From Cylindrospermum sp. FACHB-282 (lineage in GTDB: Bacteria > Cyanobacteriota > Cyanobacteriia > Cyanobacteriales > Nostocaceae): DNA of 64,000 nucleotides. Both the position numbers and the translations under genes were made by a program. Positions 21,282-46,447 of the stretch are shown here, piece after piece. The stretch is from positions 1 to 64,000 of the forward strand of contig NZ_JACJRJ010000021.1 of NCBI RefSeq assembly GCF_014697195.1, in the 5' to 3' direction. Position 1 is the first letter of the stretch, and each line of letters opens with the position of its first letter. The notes beneath the pieces are model-generated. The model was not told the origin of the DNA and did no database searches. It was given only the letters and a program-made list of their open reading frames with translations.

Positions 21282-21397
21282 GGCAGTTTCTATAGGTTTT
21301 ACTTTGATTCTAGTTCTAGCGAGTGCGATCGCTCCACAAATCATAACGCTGATGAAGTTGGGTATCCCTGTACTCAACTTACTAGCTTATCTATAAG

Positions 21398-21527
21398 TGC
21401 GGGGTGGGGGAATCGAACCCCCAGCGTTGACTCTTGGCTTGTTGGTAAGGAACCTCTTTTAGACCTAACGGTGTTCCCAGTACACTTGGAGTTAAGTCAC
21501 CAGACCTCCGCAGCAACGCTACCCCGC
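21398..21527 (-). ncRNA. tRNA-like structured RNA with atypical core
   Basis: Read on the minus strand, the 5' end GCGGGGT pairs with ACCCCGC at the 3' end (7 bp), followed by discriminator A and no encoded CCA. Just inside the 3' arm is a perfect T-arm: GGGGG, loop TTCGATT, CCCCC. In place of a D-arm, the next seven bases AGCGTTG pair perfectly with CAACGCT directly before the T-arm, stacking a second helix on the acceptor. The inner 84 nt contain a GGAG/CTCC hairpin with a GG-bearing 14-nt loop and GTGT/ACAC around a 7-nt loop ACTGGGA. It matches no standard tRNA and is much shorter than tmRNA with no tag frame. A degenerate or specialised tRNA-like RNA is the best description. Confidence 0.45.
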
Positions 21528-21861
21528 ATGAACCGACAATCGTATAGGTAGCAGGTACAATCATAAGAACTTCCTTAATGTTCACGACGAACAAGTCCCA
21601 ATACTGCACTGCTGAAACACCCTTGAGTACCTGTAGAAGAACCCTCAGACCCAAGATAGTTGGAAGGCATAGACACCATCCACCCACATATAGTAAAAAA
21701 TTTTATCATGGGAGTTAGGTTTGGGCAAATGTTCCGATTAGAATGGCGATCGCTACCCAAACATACTAATGCTTTCCCATAGCATTAGAATTAGTATGAT
21801 TATTGCTAATGGGCTGTACTAAGCTCTAGTAACCTTAATTCAGCGTAATCAGTAAAACTAT

Positions 21862-23028
21862 ATGAAATTAGATTTTGTAGAATATTGTGAAGATAAAGGT
21901 AAGCCAAGCGAGTGGCGTTTAGAAGGTTGTCAATTAGGTAATGTAAACTTAATTGTTGGGAAAAATGCCTCTGGTAAATCAAGAATTCTTAAAGCTATCA
22001 ACTTTCTATCAATTTTGCTATCTCGTGACGTATTTATTTTTCCTAGCTGTAAGTTCAGTGAGTGGATATTAACTTTCGATTCTCATAATCAGGAAAGTAA
22101 GAAAGTTTATAAATTGGTACTTAATAACGGTCAGGTAATCGAAGAGAGTTTTAGTATTGGCTCTAAGAATTACCTGGATAGAAAAGAATCGGGTGAGGGC
22201 AAAGTTTGGGCTGAAAAATTAGGTCAATATATCGATTTTCAAACTCCTGTTGATGGAGTCACTGCTTTCAAACGGAGAGATTCTATCCAACATCCTTTTT
22301 TTGATGAAATTTATAATTGGTCTAATTCATTAAGATACTATCAGTTTGGCACATATTTAGGGAAAAATTATTTTCTTTCTAACTCTAATAGAGACGAGAT
22401 GGAATTAGAATTAAAAGACCAAGATAGAGTAATTGATATATTCAATTTAGGAAAAAAAGAGATAGGATTAGATTTTATTGAAGCGATAAAATCAGATATG
22501 TTATCCGTGGGTTATAATATATCTGAAATTGAAACCGAATGTGATCAAGCAGATAAAGTATCTCACCCAGATATGAAATCCCAATATATTTATGTTCAGG
22601 AAAGTGACCTAAAAGATAAAACTGCACAAGGATTAATATCTCAAGGTATGTTTAGAGCATTATCTCTAATCATTCAAGTAAACTACTCTCTTTTATCTAA
22701 AAGAACTAGTTGCATCTTGATAGACGATATTGGGGAAGGACTTGATTTTGAAAGAGCATCAGCAATAATTAAATTACTTATTGGTAAAGCTCAGAGTGGC
22801 TTAATTCAGCTAATTATGACTACGAATGATCGCTTTATTATGAATGGTGTTCCTTTAGAGTATTGGTTAGTTATTGAGAGAAAACCAGGATTAGCTAAAC
22901 TTCACAATATACATAATTCAAAACAAATATTTGAGGATTTTAAATTCACTGGTCTAAACAATTTTGACTTTTTTGCGACTCAATTCTATATGGAGGGATT
23001 TGGCAATGAGGAGCAGATAGAACAGTGA
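21862..23028 (+). CDS. AAA-family (ABC/OLD-like) ATPase of a two-gene module
   Basis: The 388-residue protein has a Walker A loop GKNASGKS (33-40) just after the first strand, as in AAA15/AAA21 SMC-like ATPases, and a Walker B-like CILIDDIGEGLD near residue 289 followed by LIQLIMTTNDRFIM, the switch-region strand. The middle part (60-250) is a divergent insertion. It overlaps the next gene by 4 bp (GTGA), so the two are translationally coupled. ATPase plus TOPRIM-like partner is the layout of OLD nucleases and of PARIS (AriA/AriB) antiviral systems; this pair is not clearly a member of either family. No HIP1 site occurs in the two genes and they are A+T-rich, suggesting transfer. Confidence 0.75.
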   Translation: MKLDFVEYCEDKGKPSEWRLEGCQLGNVNLIVGKNASGKSRILKAINFLSILLSRDVFIFPSCKFSEWILTFDSHNQESKKVYKLVLNNGQVIEESFSIGSKNYLDRKESGEGKVWAEKLGQYIDFQTPVDGVTAFKRRDSIQHPFFDEIYNWSNSLRYYQFGTYLGKNYFLSNSNRDEMELELKDQDRVIDIFNLGKKEIGLDFIEAIKSDMLSVGYNISEIETECDQADKVSHPDMKSQYIYVQESDLKDKTAQGLISQGMFRALSLIIQVNYSLLSKRTSCILIDDIGEGLDFERASAIIKLLIGKAQSGLIQLIMTTNDRFIMNGVPLEYWLVIERKPGLAKLHNIHNSKQIFEDFKFTGLNNFDFFATQFYMEGFGNEEQIEQ

Positions 23029-23717
23029 AAAAGCTAGCTATTTTTGTAGAGGGTAAAACAGAACAAATTTTCGTCAAGAAATTACTTAGAGAAATTGCCG
23101 GCAGAAGTAATATTTCCATAGAAATCCAATCTAAGGAAGGGCATAAAATTGCTACTTTAATAATGAAAGATTCTGTCACTTCCGCAACAAAGTTTTATGT
23201 TTTAATTTATAACTCAGGTGGTGACAGTAAAGTTGTTTCAGATATGAAAGATCAGTATAATTCTCTAACCGCATCTGGCTATGAGACAATAATAGGATTA
23301 AGAGACGTTTATCCAATACCCATATCTCAAAAATCTAGACTGCAAAATGGCTTACATTCTTCCTTACCAAAAGGAGTAATTCCTGTAGACATAGTTCTTG
23401 CTGTTATGGAAGTAGAAGCGTGGTTTTTAGCAGAATGGAATCATTTTTTTAAAATAGATATAAGTCTCACACCAGAGAGAATTCAAACAGAGTTAGGATT
23501 TAATCCTCAAACTGACGATATGGAACAAAGACCTCATCCTGCTGAGGATATGGAACAGATTTATAACCTTGTAGGAAAATATTATAATAAAAGCGAGAAA
23601 CAACTCAATAGACTTGCATCTAATCTAGATTACGAATTTCTATATATAAAACTTGCCAAGAATGTTCCTAGCCTGGGAGAATTTATTGGATATATTAATC
23701 AATTCATGACTCCTTAG
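23025..23717 (+). CDS. TOPRIM-like partner of the AAA ATPase
   Basis: The 230-residue protein opens with a short beta strand and VEGKTEQIF, the first TOPRIM-type motif with its glutamate (residue 9). The second region reads KFYVLIYNSGGDSKVVSDM, where a DxD would be expected, so the metal site may be altered or this may be a relative of TOPRIM. The rest (GLRDVYPIPI, VMEVEAWFLAEWNHF, PAEDMEQIYNLVGKYYNKSEK) resembles uncharacterised proteins encoded beside AAA ATPases. The GTG start overlaps the ATPase stop codon. A nuclease effector switched by the ATPase is inferred, not shown. Confidence 0.6.
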   Translation: MKKLAIFVEGKTEQIFVKKLLREIAGRSNISIEIQSKEGHKIATLIMKDSVTSATKFYVLIYNSGGDSKVVSDMKDQYNSLTASGYETIIGLRDVYPIPISQKSRLQNGLHSSLPKGVIPVDIVLAVMEVEAWFLAEWNHFFKIDISLTPERIQTELGFNPQTDDMEQRPHPAEDMEQIYNLVGKYYNKSEKQLNRLASNLDYEFLYIKLAKNVPSLGEFIGYINQFMTP

Positions 23718-28853: not shown

Positions 28854-29501
28854 TTATAAATCGTATAAAGTCTTAAACCAGGTTATGAATCCCTGCACCT
28901 TGGGATTTTGCGGATTTAAAATATTGTACTTGATAGCTTGATGTATTTGTCTACCTGGTTCATCTTGCCATGCTAACCAAGTGTAAATTTCAGCTTTATC
29001 AAGATATGAATCTTTGAATGTTGCTCCTTTCTTTTTTGCCTCTCTTGCTACTTCCTGTGCATATTGCCAAATATATTCTCCCTGTTCAGGAATCATATAA
29101 CCTAAAAAAGTCTCTAACATACCTTGTATGATATTATCTGGCATAATCCAAACACCAAACTTTTTTCCATCTGTACTAATAATTAATCCTGTTTCTGGTA
29201 TTTGCTCAGGAAGATTACCAATATTTGGCAAACAAGCCATTCTGATACTTTGCCAACGTAAAGACGCGTCATCATCCGCATCTACCATCAAACCTAAATG
29301 TGTGCGTCCTCTAGTTTGTAATTCTGTATATATGAGGTCAGAAGTAATATTTTCATAACCTCCACATTCTTGAATTGATATAATTGCTTCCTTTTTATTT
29401 TCACCCCAAGTAATTCCATTTTTTTCAATTAGTTCTGGTATAACTCTCTCATCATCCTTACCTTCAACTAACAGTTTTTTCGGCCCATCAGTTTTTGCCA
29501 T
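28854..29501 (-). CDS. DUF3226-type TOPRIM-like protein
   Basis: The 215-residue protein opens KKLLVEGKDDERVIPELIEK, a TOPRIM first motif with Glu, and has the second motif LMVDADDDASLRW with the DxD pair, so the metal-binding site looks complete. The remainder (GVWIMPDNIIQGMLETFLGY, LAWQDEPGRQIHQAI) is typical of DUF3226 proteins, which are usually encoded right after an AAA ATPase. It starts 2 nt after the stop codon of the ATPase gene upstream. Inferred role: nuclease effector of a two-gene OLD-like module. Confidence 0.8.
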   Translation of the reverse strand: MAKTDGPKKLLVEGKDDERVIPELIEKNGITWGENKKEAIISIQECGGYENITSDLIYTELQTRGRTHLGLMVDADDDASLRWQSIRMACLPNIGNLPEQIPETGLIISTDGKKFGVWIMPDNIIQGMLETFLGYMIPEQGEYIWQYAQEVAREAKKKGATFKDSYLDKAEIYTWLAWQDEPGRQIHQAIKYNILNPQNPKVQGFITWFKTLYDL

Positions 29502-29503
29502 TG

Positions 29504-30649
29504 CTAACGTATCTCCAGTTCTCTTTCAACAGCAATGGCAATTTGGTTTTCAGTAAAAACTATACTTTTTTCTTTACCTTTTTCAATTCTGTGAATCCTA
29601 ATACCATCATCAGATACATCTTCTTGTTTTGCAATATCAGCTAAACTTTGCCAACAATCATTATTATGTGTAGTTGCAAAAACCTGTACATTTAATCTTT
29701 TAGCTGTATCCCAAATCATTTTCCACATATTGGACATCGCAGTAAAATGAAGTCCTGTATCAATTTCATCTACAAATAAATATCCGTCTTTAGCAGACAC
29801 AATAGCCAGTGCTAATCCTAAAATGCGCCAAATACCATCCCCCATACTGCCGATTGGTACACGCTTTCCATCAGAAAGAAGTACAAGAAAACCACCCCGC
29901 GAATCTGAGGAATACATCAATTTTTGAGAACTTACTGGAGCGATACGTTTAATTTTCGAGTCTATTTTATTAAGTGCCTGTTCTATAAGTGTTTCGTCAG
30001 GTGTTAGTACTACCTGCCCAAATAGCTCAATCATTTCCCCTATTTTTAAAGAAGATGATGCAATAAATTTTGTTTTTGGAATACTACTTAAAGCCAAACC
30101 CTTTCTGTAGCGGAACAATCTGATAGAGTTTAGAGGAAGACCACAATCGGATGATATATATAATGACAATTTCTCTTGTTGTTGCCCGTTACGCATCCAT
30201 TGTACAATGAAATTGAGCTTCTTTAACTCTTGCAAATCTTCATTAGTAGAACCAACTTCTTCTCTATCAATATGAGCTTCATCATGACCATAACTGCTAT
30301 TATTTTGACGCAGCATTGCTATCGATACATCCAGGCTCTCCAGAGTTTTATCATCAAGACCTGATATAGAAAACTTGCTTCCAGGTTCAATCTCGTGGCC
30401 ATAAAAAAGGTGGCGAATATCAAGCTGACGATCTTCTTTACCCTCATCACTCCTTAAATCTTCACCTCGGTTAGTCATAACATCCGCAAGTGGATCAAGA
30501 TCAGTCCGTGAGCATAAAAGTTGAATAGCTTCTAGTATTGATGTTTTACCGCTATTATTTTCACCCACTAGCAGATTAATTCTACCTAGCTGCTGAAGCT
30601 CGAAAGACTTGAAACATCGAAAATTCTCTATTTTTACGCTTTTCAACAT
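29504..30649 (-). CDS. AAA15-like ATPase partner of the DUF3226 protein
   Basis: Starting at the ATG at 30649 (MLKSVKIENFRCF, the standard opening of RecF/OLD-type ATPases; a TTG at 30670 is less likely) the protein has 381 residues. Walker A GENNSGKT lies at 29-36, a signature-like segment VPIGSMGDGIWRILGLALA precedes the Walker B DGYLFVDEIDTGLH, and VFATTHNNDC supplies the switch histidine. All ATPase motifs are intact. With the DUF3226 gene it forms a translationally close pair resembling split OLD nucleases. HIP1 sites are absent. Confidence 0.85.
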   Translation of the reverse strand: MLKSVKIENFRCFKSFELQQLGRINLLVGENNSGKTSILEAIQLLCSRTDLDPLADVMTNRGEDLRSDEGKEDRQLDIRHLFYGHEIEPGSKFSISGLDDKTLESLDVSIAMLRQNNSSYGHDEAHIDREEVGSTNEDLQELKKLNFIVQWMRNGQQQEKLSLYISSDCGLPLNSIRLFRYRKGLALSSIPKTKFIASSSLKIGEMIELFGQVVLTPDETLIEQALNKIDSKIKRIAPVSSQKLMYSSDSRGGFLVLLSDGKRVPIGSMGDGIWRILGLALAIVSAKDGYLFVDEIDTGLHFTAMSNMWKMIWDTAKRLNVQVFATTHNNDCWQSLADIAKQEDVSDDGIRIHRIEKGKEKSIVFTENQIAIAVERELEIR

Positions 30650-30801
30650 AATATTGCTAGCCAGAGACAACAGAGAAACAAAGACTGGTATTAGTATAAG
30701 CAGTCTTGATACCTCTCATTTTAGCAAAAAGGGTAAACTAAAATTAAATTTAGGGATATTTATTACTATTTCCCAGAACTTAAAACAAGTTAGACAATTA
30801 T

Positions 30802-44335: not shown

Positions 44336-46447
44336 GTTTCAATCCCTAATAACCCAAGTTGCGGGTAATAGGTAATTGGTGATTAAATCCCAGTTTTCAT
44401 CCTGTTCATCCTTTAATCCTGGACATCCTAATTCTGACAGTTTTCCTAACTAGCAACTTACGTTAATAGGGATTTTGATGAATTGCAACTTGTCATAGCT
44501 ATTTTAGCTACAATATCATGCGAGTTTCAATCCCTAATAGGGATTTTGATGAATTGCAACAGCTTGGAAAAACGACTGGGAAAAAGAGATAGGGGTTTCA
44601 ATCCCTAATAGGGATTTTGATGAATTGCAACCCTAAGGTAATTGTATCGGCTGGTTTTTCCTTGCTGTTTCAATCCCTAATAGGGATTTTGATGAATTGC
44701 AACAAGCGCCACAAGTGGTACTCAGGTGATAATGGGTGAGTTTCAATCCCTAATAGGGATTTTGATGAATTGCAACATAACAACCTTTTAGATGCATTCA
44801 ATACAGGAAGTGTTTCAATCCCTAATAGGGATTTTGATGAATTGCAACAATATGAGGGATTGTTGAGTACGTTCAACCGTCCTTCAGTTTCAATCCCTAA
44901 TAGGGATTTTGATGAATTGCAACTTTGGAATATATTCCCAAAGCACCAGAGGTAACAGTTTCAATCCCTAATAGGGATTTTGATGAATTGCAACGATCCG
45001 CCACTATTAATTCCTCCCATACCTCATACGTTTCAATCCCTAATAGGGATTTTGATGAATTGCAACCCAACTGAAACCGGCCCAAGCTGGGGGCGAGATC
45101 GTTTCAATCCCTAATAGGGATTTTGATGAATTGCAACAATCGCATGTTGTCAGGACTTTGGGGAAGAAAATTGTTTCAATCCCTAATAGGGATTTTGATG
45201 AATTGCAACGTAGACATAACCAAGGTTTACGATCGCTGTCTAAAGTTTCAATCCCTAATAGGGATTTTGATGAATTGCAACGGCGTCGTACCACTAGCGC
45301 GAATTTCCATAGGCAGTTTCAATCCCTAATAGGGATTTTGATGAATTGCAACGTAAATGCACCGGGGCTTCTACTTGTAGCGCCGATGTTGTTTCAATCC
45401 CTAATAGGGATTTTGATGAATTGCAACACGCCAGGGGCTTCATCTTCATTGCAGATTTTGTTTCAATCCCTAATAGGGATTTTGATGAATTGCAACCGAT
45501 ACCCAGCTAATTTAAAAACAGTTTCTAAAGTTTCAATCCCTAATAGGGATTTTGATGAATTGCAACCGATCGCGAACAGTCCATAATTCAGTTTTGGATG
45601 GTTTCAATCCCTAATAGGGATTTTGATGAATTGCAACTTGTACGGAAAATTAACTTATCAGGAAAAAAAATCATGTTTCAATCCCTAATAGGGATTTTGA
45701 TGAATTGCAACATTTACTTTACCTACTTTAGTAACTATCCAACCTTTGGTTTCAATCCCTAATAGGGATTTTGATGAATTGCAACGGAGACTTCCAGGCG
45801 TCCATATCTCTGCACTATCCGGTTTCAATCCCTAATAGGGATTTTGATGAATTGCAACTTCCTTAATTCTCCTTAACTTTTGACTTTTGATTAAGTTTCA
45901 ATCCCTAATAGGGATTTTGATGAATTGCAACAAGGAAGAAGAATTAATAATTGGGGCCATTGTGTTGGTTTCAATCCCTAATAGGGATTTTGATGAATTG
46001 CAACAGTTGTAATTTTCTTTTTCTTTCCGCTACGGTAGCGTTTCAATCCCTAATAGGGATTTTGATGAATTGCAACAATTGAGGTTGATTACTTTGTTCT
46101 ATAAACTGCCCTTGTTTCAATCCCTAATAGGGATTTTGATGAATTGCAACTTTCTTGATAGCAAATCGGATTCTTTCTTGGTGTTGCGTTGGGTTTCAAT
46201 CCCTAATAGGGATTTTGATGAATTGCAACACTAAAGTCTCACCAAGATTGCCGAATAATCCTTGGTTTCAATCCCTAATAGGGATTTTGATGAATTGCAA
46301 CTCCTGGCTTATGATAAACGGTTGGTATCGGTTCAGGTTTCAATCCCTAATAGGGATTTTGATGAATTGCAACGCCCCTTTGATAAAGTTTCTTTTTTGG
46401 AGCGGGTGCAGTTTCAATCCCTAATAGGGATTTTGATGAATTGCAAC
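44336..46447 (-). CRISPR. CRISPR array, 28 repeats, 27 spacers, trailer repeat interrupted
   Basis: The 37-bp repeat begins GTTTCAATCCCTAATAGGGA and ends GATGAATTGCAAC on the plus strand. Intact copies start at 44524, 44595, 44667 and so on to 46411 (27 copies); one more is split by a 114-bp element (parts 44336-44350 and 44465-44489). Spacers are 32-42 nt, all different. On the minus strand the repeat ends ATTGAAAC, the usual crRNA 5' handle, so the array is read right to left, with its leader at 46448-46740. Such repeats occur with type I-D and III systems of Nostocales, but no cas genes are in the window. Confidence 0.97.
44351..44464. mobile_element. Non-autonomous element inserted in the last CRISPR repeat, copy 1
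   Basis: The 114-bp insert begins AACCCAAGTTGCGGG and ends CTAGCAACTTACGTT. Counting one flanking base, the ends are 16-bp imperfect inverted repeats of the form TAACNNAAGTTGCNNG. It is flanked by AAT on both sides and splits a CRISPR repeat after base 15. Removing it and one AAT restores the exact 37-bp repeat. It contains GGTAATA/GGTAATT heptamers and no ORF. A second copy is at 57570-57697. Confidence 0.85.

Follow-up and report, generated by a model that had tools for sequence, protein, structure and literature searches.

The window analysed here is the whole stretch of 64,000 nucleotides at the beginning of contig NZ_JACJRJ010000021.1 of Cylindrospermum sp. FACHB-282. As seen in Table 1, its minus strand carries a conserved unit of about 290 nt, in which a -10 box and a small reading frame are followed by a tRNA-like structure (TLS). 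The fold that a first-pass annotation had placed at 21398-21527 stands, but the conserved unit begins about 165 nt 5' of the TLS and stops at the TLS 3' end, and a small-protein gene has this RNA as its 3' end. An AbiLi/AriA-like ATPase gene and a TOPRIM-like gene are the divergently transcribed neighbours of this unit. Elsewhere in the window, a second ATPase and TOPRIM-like pair was seen by eye, resembling OLD/PARIS-type defence pairs. The window also contains a CRISPR array of 27 CRISPR-DR5 repeats, and no cas gene was seen by eye among the window ORFs of at least 150 aa.

Table 1. Positions in the window of the conserved unit, its parts and other features
Feature	Position	Strand	Remark
-10 box TAAAAT	21700..21705	-	TTGCCC 17 nt upstream; conserved distance to ATG
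ORF, 98 aa from GTG 21687	21391..21687	-	other possible starts TTG 21654, ATG 21564
Conserved coding part of ORF	about 21654 to about 21460	-	
Conserved ATG	21562..21564	-	every intact member
TLS, 130 nt (acceptor, helix 2, T-arm, A73)	21398..21527	-	
Acceptor 5' strand GCGGGGT	21521..21527	-	pairs with 21399-21405; U(-1) at 21528 precedes
Helix 2 5' strand AGCGTTG	21514..21520	-	doubles as Val-Ala-Leu codons; compensatory changes, 3/7 pairs
CTGCGG motif after helix 2	21508..21513	-	near-invariant (L097: CTGCAG)
D-arm-like hairpin GTC-TGGT-GAC	21496..21505	-	GG in loop
CCAAGAG motif	21431..21437	-	conserved in alignments, 5' of helix 2 3' strand
Helix 2 3' strand CAACGCT	21423..21429	-	covaries with 21514-21520
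T-arm GGGGG-TTCGATT-CCCCC	21406..21422	-	98.9% paired; compensatory change in 2 pairs
Acceptor 3' strand ACCCCGC	21399..21405	-	
Discriminator A73	21398	-	
AbiLi/AriA-like ATPase gene	21862-23028		divergent from the unit
TOPRIM-like gene	23025-23717		divergent from the unit
Second ATPase and TOPRIM-like pair	28854-30670		ORFs of 388 aa and 215 aa
CRISPR array	44524-46447	-	

Anatomy and identity of the tRNA-like structure

Strand-by-strand reading of the window TLS gives pairing of 7/7 in the acceptor and 7/7 in helix 2, together with a perfect T-arm. There are zero unpaired bases in the junction, where helix 2 comes directly after the acceptor and abuts the T-arm. The perfect 7-bp acceptor, the T-arm with its TTCGATT loop and the second perfect 7-bp helix (AGCGTTG/CAACGCT), which caps 84 nt at the junction, had been described in the first-pass annotation, and each was found to be exact on the minus strand (21527..21398). 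No CCA is encoded after A73. The folding energy is modestly unusual (z = -2.2; 9/200 shuffles equally good), and thermodynamics by itself is weak evidence for the TLS.

The annotation had also taken the RNA to be neither tRNA nor tmRNA, and the searches agree. ARAGORN found 0 tRNA and 0 tmRNA genes in the window, and the Rfam tRNA model (RF00005) scored 19.1 bits on the TLS span, under its gathering score of 29. A gathering-level search of the window and the homologues with Rfam 15 returned only CRISPR-DR5 and an unrelated tRNA, with no tmRNA and no YrlA. An ordinary tRNA or tmRNA is ruled out by these negatives as the identity of the TLS.

The supposed lack of a D-arm is true of the junction, where the 7-bp helix occupies its place, but a displaced hairpin with a GG loop lies beyond helix 2 in 6/8 lineages. 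It starts 1-2 nt past the conserved CTGCGG (Fisher combined p about 1.5e-6, by a post hoc definition). The hairpins are GTC-TGGT-GAC, GCC-TGGT-GGC, AGGTC-TGGTT-GACCT, ATCG-AACGG-CGAT, TACCA-GACGG-TGGTA and TCTCT-GGAA-AGAGA; the stem sequences vary, and the position and the GG, in the loop or at its edge, are constant. Among the 8 lineages tested, L087 and L097 do not have a hairpin at this position. Since the hairpin was defined with the data in view, this evidence is suggestive. By analogy, the hairpin could dock into the T-loop like the D-loop of a tRNA.

At the 5' end of the acceptor, U(-1)/G(+1) is present in all members (L094 by eye), and this is the combination preferred by bacterial RNase P. 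A73 is retained in nearly all members, and CCA is encoded only in L098, the most divergent one. No intrinsic terminator was found 3' of the TLS in the window.

Distribution and covariation

Homologues of the element are scattered over about two dozen cyanobacterial genomes, and the source genome (6.1 Mb, 113 contigs) contains a single copy. In a blastn search of 217 same-family genomes, full-length relatives were found in 6 other Nostocaceae; two same-genus genomes among those searched had no blastn relative of the element. A pattern scan added Nostoc NMS9 and one Leptolyngbyaceae MAG, and a sequence model (R1) added further members across the cyanobacterial class; L087, L088 and L098 among them are very divergent. 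In 367 genomes sampled from the phylum, no match lay further away than the same class. The structure model R2, for which four sequences were used, gave 22 matches, partial and decayed copies included; the decaying copies are L096, L099 and L101. Additionally, the model of the type B elements (L087 and L088) reciprocally recovers the window element (E 3e-7 over 83 kb). Across members, the TLS is 116-139 nt long with a helix 2 loop of roughly 70-92 nt, and imperfect acceptors occur in two divergent members, L087 (5/7) and L098 (5/7).

A sequence alignment of all divergent members misplaced the 3' strand of helix 2, and the structure model was used in its place. In the resulting structure-fitted alignment (A7; 22 matches, 21 distinct rows), standard pairs fill 95.1% of pair cells, compared to 49-59% when the partners are slid by 1-3 columns, and the covariation score is reached by 0/500 shuffles; A7 was fitted to the proposed structure, which favours its pairing figures. 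The fold as first annotated called for compensatory substitutions in homologues, and these are present in 7/19 pairs and in all three helices (acceptor 2, helix 2 3, T-stem 2). The strand-by-strand reading, which is independent of A7, agrees, with acceptor pair 5, helix 2 pair 7 and T-stem pair 1 each occurring as G-C and A-U. The TLS fold is real and conserved, and not the product of chance.

Several other matches were set aside. Those in genus g79 (L128-L130) are 3' halves of tRNA-Gly and not members of the element, the R3 match in G035 lies within trpD (by eye) and is a chance match, and the 71-72-nt R2 matches that were examined are ordinary tRNAs. A phage or plasmid origin was also rejected: DNA matches were short tRNA-like stretches in phages only, and there were none in plasmids, none at the protein level and none in viral contigs. 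Two observations concern tRNA genes themselves. At L128:2772-2883, L129:2891-3002 and L130:2514-2625, the 3' half of tRNA-Gly(UCC) (by eye) is joined to unrelated upstream DNA; the junction falls at a conserved place in three genomes of one genus and looks like an attachment-site fragment. In the source genome, G000:C26:71246-73418 (L069) is a dense tRNA cluster with odd long members, e.g. 71672-71782 (111 nt, 36.9 bits).

A reading frame overlapping the RNA

The -10 box lies 132-150 nt upstream of the conserved ATG in most members. The window promoter scan by itself was not above chance; what speaks for the promoter is this conserved distance. An AAGGA(GG) Shine-Dalgarno-like sequence precedes the ATG in most members, often well spaced, and the frame in phase with the ATG is uninterrupted through the conserved block in every intact member. 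Conservation of this frame extends 5' of the ATG. The mean BLOSUM62 value of differing codons is 1.31 in the 37 codons 5' of the ATG (null -0.39 +- 0.48) and 2.55 in codons 1-21 after it (null 0.09 +- 0.76), with 0/600 shuffles as high for either half, and the synonymous fraction gives p = 0.002 and 0.003, respectively; since column shuffling ignores phylogeny, these values are only guides. No conservative substitution was detected in the other forward frames, and one reverse frame (p = 0.017) mirrors the coding frame. An upstream frame, ORF1 ('MPS...LREH'), was rejected as coding. It has internal stops in 5/9 members and no codon signal, and the real frame is the ATG-phased one.

Of the start candidates, the internal ATG alone is universal; the upstream GTG and TTG are not. 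Because L037 and L079 have in-frame stops, the start lies no further 5' than about the TTG, a codon absent from L035 and L036. The predicted product is a small hydrophobic protein of about 60 aa containing ...MIAPVVYTTVGSCGVALLRR... and a motif GSxCxVA(L/F)LR. This motif or close variants of it, and the frame, are kept in divergent members, as in ...TPIVSFIGSACAVALLRG (L087), ...ISVAMALGSTCGGAFLRD (L088) and ...TSVMACVWCGIAFLRS (L098). A hydrophobic stretch of 17 residues (best window mean 1.4-2.3) was seen in all members tested, mostly one ending ...VALL, and the protein is probably membrane-bound. The C-terminus is variable after about RRSGD, and in some members the frame crosses the entire TLS. 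No Pfam or NCBIfam profile matched the small protein; the only trace, DUF4149 with L087 (E 0.09), was below cut-off.

The conserved codons of the protein end with Gly-Val-Ala-Leu-Leu-Arg, and these same codons also form the 5' strand of each of two stems, acceptor and helix 2. In different members, the helix 2 5' strand reads GCGTTG, GCATTG, GCATTT, GCACTT, GCGTTC or GTGTTG, encoding Ala-Leu, Ala-Leu, Ala-Phe, Ala-Leu, Ala-Phe and Val-Leu in that order, and the matching 3' strands are CAACGC, CGATGC, GAAATGC, GAAGTGT, GAACGT and CAACAT. The 3' strand lies past the stop codon in most members, outside the frame where the ORF stops in the loop, and changes alongside the 5' strand. Most changes in the overlap codons are synonymous or conservative, and the non-coding side usually carries a compensating change. 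Neither code alone would explain this pattern of variation in helix 2, and the comparisons indicate that the element very probably has a dual identity as conserved RNA and conserved protein. The first-pass annotation had held that conservation as a coding frame would speak against its RNA reading. The frame is conserved, yet the RNA reading survives, because both constraints act on the same bases. If confirmed, the overlap would be a clean and testable case of one stretch of DNA under two codes, in which the protein can change only at codons where the pairing partner in the RNA is able to change too. Overall, the earlier interpretation is partly supported.

Neighbourhoods, possible function and known systems

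The element is found at unrelated loci across genomes. At the gnd locus of G223, the -10 box and the element are followed by PARIS ariA-ariB (PADLOC AriA 6e-42, AriB 3e-27). Compared to G099 and G101, the ariA of this system (L064:8520-11061) has an in-frame TGA near the P-loop, and therefore the system is probably broken. In G099 and G101, the promoter region shared with G223 is joined directly to ariA, and an element block of about 430 bp is absent; G098 has the element and no ariA/PARIS at the gnd locus, and only the first bases of the element are left there in G090. Thus, ariA occurs without the element and the element without ariA, and the element is not a required part of PARIS. The ~430-bp block may reflect insertion or loss, and the G090 remnant favours loss. 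At the ctpB locus, the element is present in G158 and G173, and G138 has a relative of the window ATPase there instead (by eye).

Mobile elements and toxin-like genes are also seen near some copies. The type B element L088 (G109) is cargo of a complete-looking type V-K CAST at L133:2850-12361, with Cas12k, a MerR-like regulator, TniQ, TniB/TnsC, TnsB and a repeat array, near tRNA-Val(gac); the remaining cargo includes a Fic-like gene and an hsdM fragment (hsdM by eye). The other type B element, L087, adjoins a type I restriction hsdR gene and a decayed CAST (TniQ, TnsC and TnsB fragments; L132:3259-10764). Zeta-toxin-like and ParDE-like genes were recognised by eye near L084 and L127. The latter (L127:2540-2665) is the second element copy of Scytonema sp. 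NIES-4073; the ParDE-like pair there was read by eye, and an HNH_5 gene lies downstream. No defence gene is close to L092, L093 or L066. A link between the element and defence or toxin neighbours is suggestive on this evidence.

We tentatively propose, as a reading that falls somewhat short of probable, that the element is a self-limiting mRNA for a small protein, ending in a tRNA-like module that would be processed by RNase P. A minihelix of acceptor and T-arm is the minimal module for RNase P, the 3'-processing enzymes and the CCA-adding enzyme, and from these minihelix rules we infer that RNase P would recognise the TLS. Cleavage between U(-1) and G(+1) would split the Cys codon TGC, and its products would be a non-stop message and a stable tRNA-like RNA. 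A translating ribosome would have to open both stems, acceptor and helix 2, by melting their 5' strands, and translation would therefore be in competition with tRNA-type processing. Synthesis of the protein would be restricted to times of slow or saturated processing, e.g. when infection or stress upsets tRNA maturation or tRNA pools. What the sequences show is the conserved TLS, the conserved frame, their overlap, the constant -10 distance and the patchy distribution; this competition, the membrane location and a role in stress or defence are what we infer. That defence and toxin genes are often close by fits a guarded membrane peptide, and it is not proof of one. With slightly more reserve, the element may represent a new class of bacterial mRNA, in which the C-terminal codons of a small membrane-protein gene fold as a tRNA-like module, and ribosomes and tRNA-processing enzymes compete to set expression, possibly as a sensor of infection or stress.

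A less likely, though possible, account is an accessory defence or toxin gene, in which a toxic membrane peptide (cf. type I toxin-antitoxin systems and abortive infection) has the TLS as built-in control or sensor and moves with defence islands and mobile elements. It draws on the hydrophobic nature of the protein, the patchy distribution with its decaying copies, the ATPase and TOPRIM pair of the window, the PARIS genes directly downstream in G223, hsdR by L087, the hsdM fragment by L088 within CAST cargo and the toxin-like genes near L084 and L127. However, such genes are abundant in the variable regions of cyanobacteria, the copies L092, L093 and L066 are without a close defence gene, and no antisense RNA or antitoxin was identified; an opposite-strand promoter-like site at 21533-21561 is a lone one and not above chance in the promoter scan.

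The codon evidence bears on a purely structured non-coding RNA, whose 290-nt precursor would give a 5' RNA and a tRNA-like RNA on RNase P cleavage, the frame being incidental or vestigial. This is improbable: covariation of the TLS, the absence of a universal upstream start and the unconserved C-terminus would suit it, but codon-aware conservation is confined to a single frame and extends over both halves, and distant members retain the frame and the motif. More doubtful again is a free tRNA-like RNA that acts in trans, as decoy or as sensor, on proteins that target tRNA; PARIS AriB and other anticodon nucleases, or phage tRNA functions, would be its partners. The ancestral adjacency to PARIS at the gnd locus and the ATPase/TOPRIM pair beside the window copy would be in keeping with this, but the TLS has no anticodon arm, where many tRNA nucleases cut, the adjacent ariA in G223 has an in-frame stop, and most copies are not beside such systems. 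The attachment-related relic of the first-pass annotation, or a remnant of a tRNA gene, deserves hardly any weight and is refuted by covariation for the family as a whole: the closest ordinary matches of the T-arm and acceptor are indeed tRNA-Gly(UCC) genes, but compensatory change maintains all three helices, the 290-nt unit is found at unrelated loci together with its -10 box, and at one locus relatives that share the promoter region are missing the whole element behind it.

The proposed self-limiting message can be set beside several known RNAs. Like tRNA (RF00005), the TLS has a 7-bp acceptor, a 5-bp T-stem, a 7-nt T-loop of the form TTCRANN and A73, with CCA not encoded. It does not form the cloverleaf of D-arm, anticodon arm and T-arm at a junction; a 7-bp helix with a loop of ~70-92 nt stands where the D and anticodon arms would be. 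With tmRNA (SsrA), it shares the combination in one bacterial RNA of a non-cloverleaf tRNA-like end and a short frame, and RNase P processing would be expected in both. In tmRNA, however, the acceptor strands are the two ends of a 350-nt RNA and pair around a tag frame, whereas here they lie 130 nt apart and close a module at the 3' end; the frame begins upstream and enters the TLS from there, is not a tag, and no D-loop segment separates the acceptor from the helix corresponding to P2.

The 3' tRNA-like structures of plant RNA viruses (e.g. tymoviruses) lie at the end of an mRNA and adjoin or overlap its coding region, as does the TLS. Those structures are viral and have a pseudoknotted acceptor, whereas the present one belongs to a chromosomal bacterial gene, and we know of no sequence relation between them. 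The bacterial Y RNAs of the YrlA type carry a tRNA-mimicking module and are similar in this respect, but they are not known to have a long coding overlap, and here there is no Rfam match and no Ro-type protein gene was seen in the neighbourhood. Type I toxin mRNAs (PMC8309996) are likewise structured messages for small hydrophobic proteins, probably of the membrane; here the module is tRNA-like and 3', no antisense antitoxin was identified and toxicity is hypothetical. Searches of the open-access literature on tRNA-like RNAs gave no description of this TLS and small-protein family, and no bacterial precedent for an overlap of message and tRNA-like fold on the same bases.

At ~290 nt, the unit could be tested whole in laboratory strains. 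If confirmed, the competition would provide a direct route from the state of tRNA processing to control of a membrane protein, and the element would be the second bacterial RNA, after tmRNA, to be both message and tRNA mimic.
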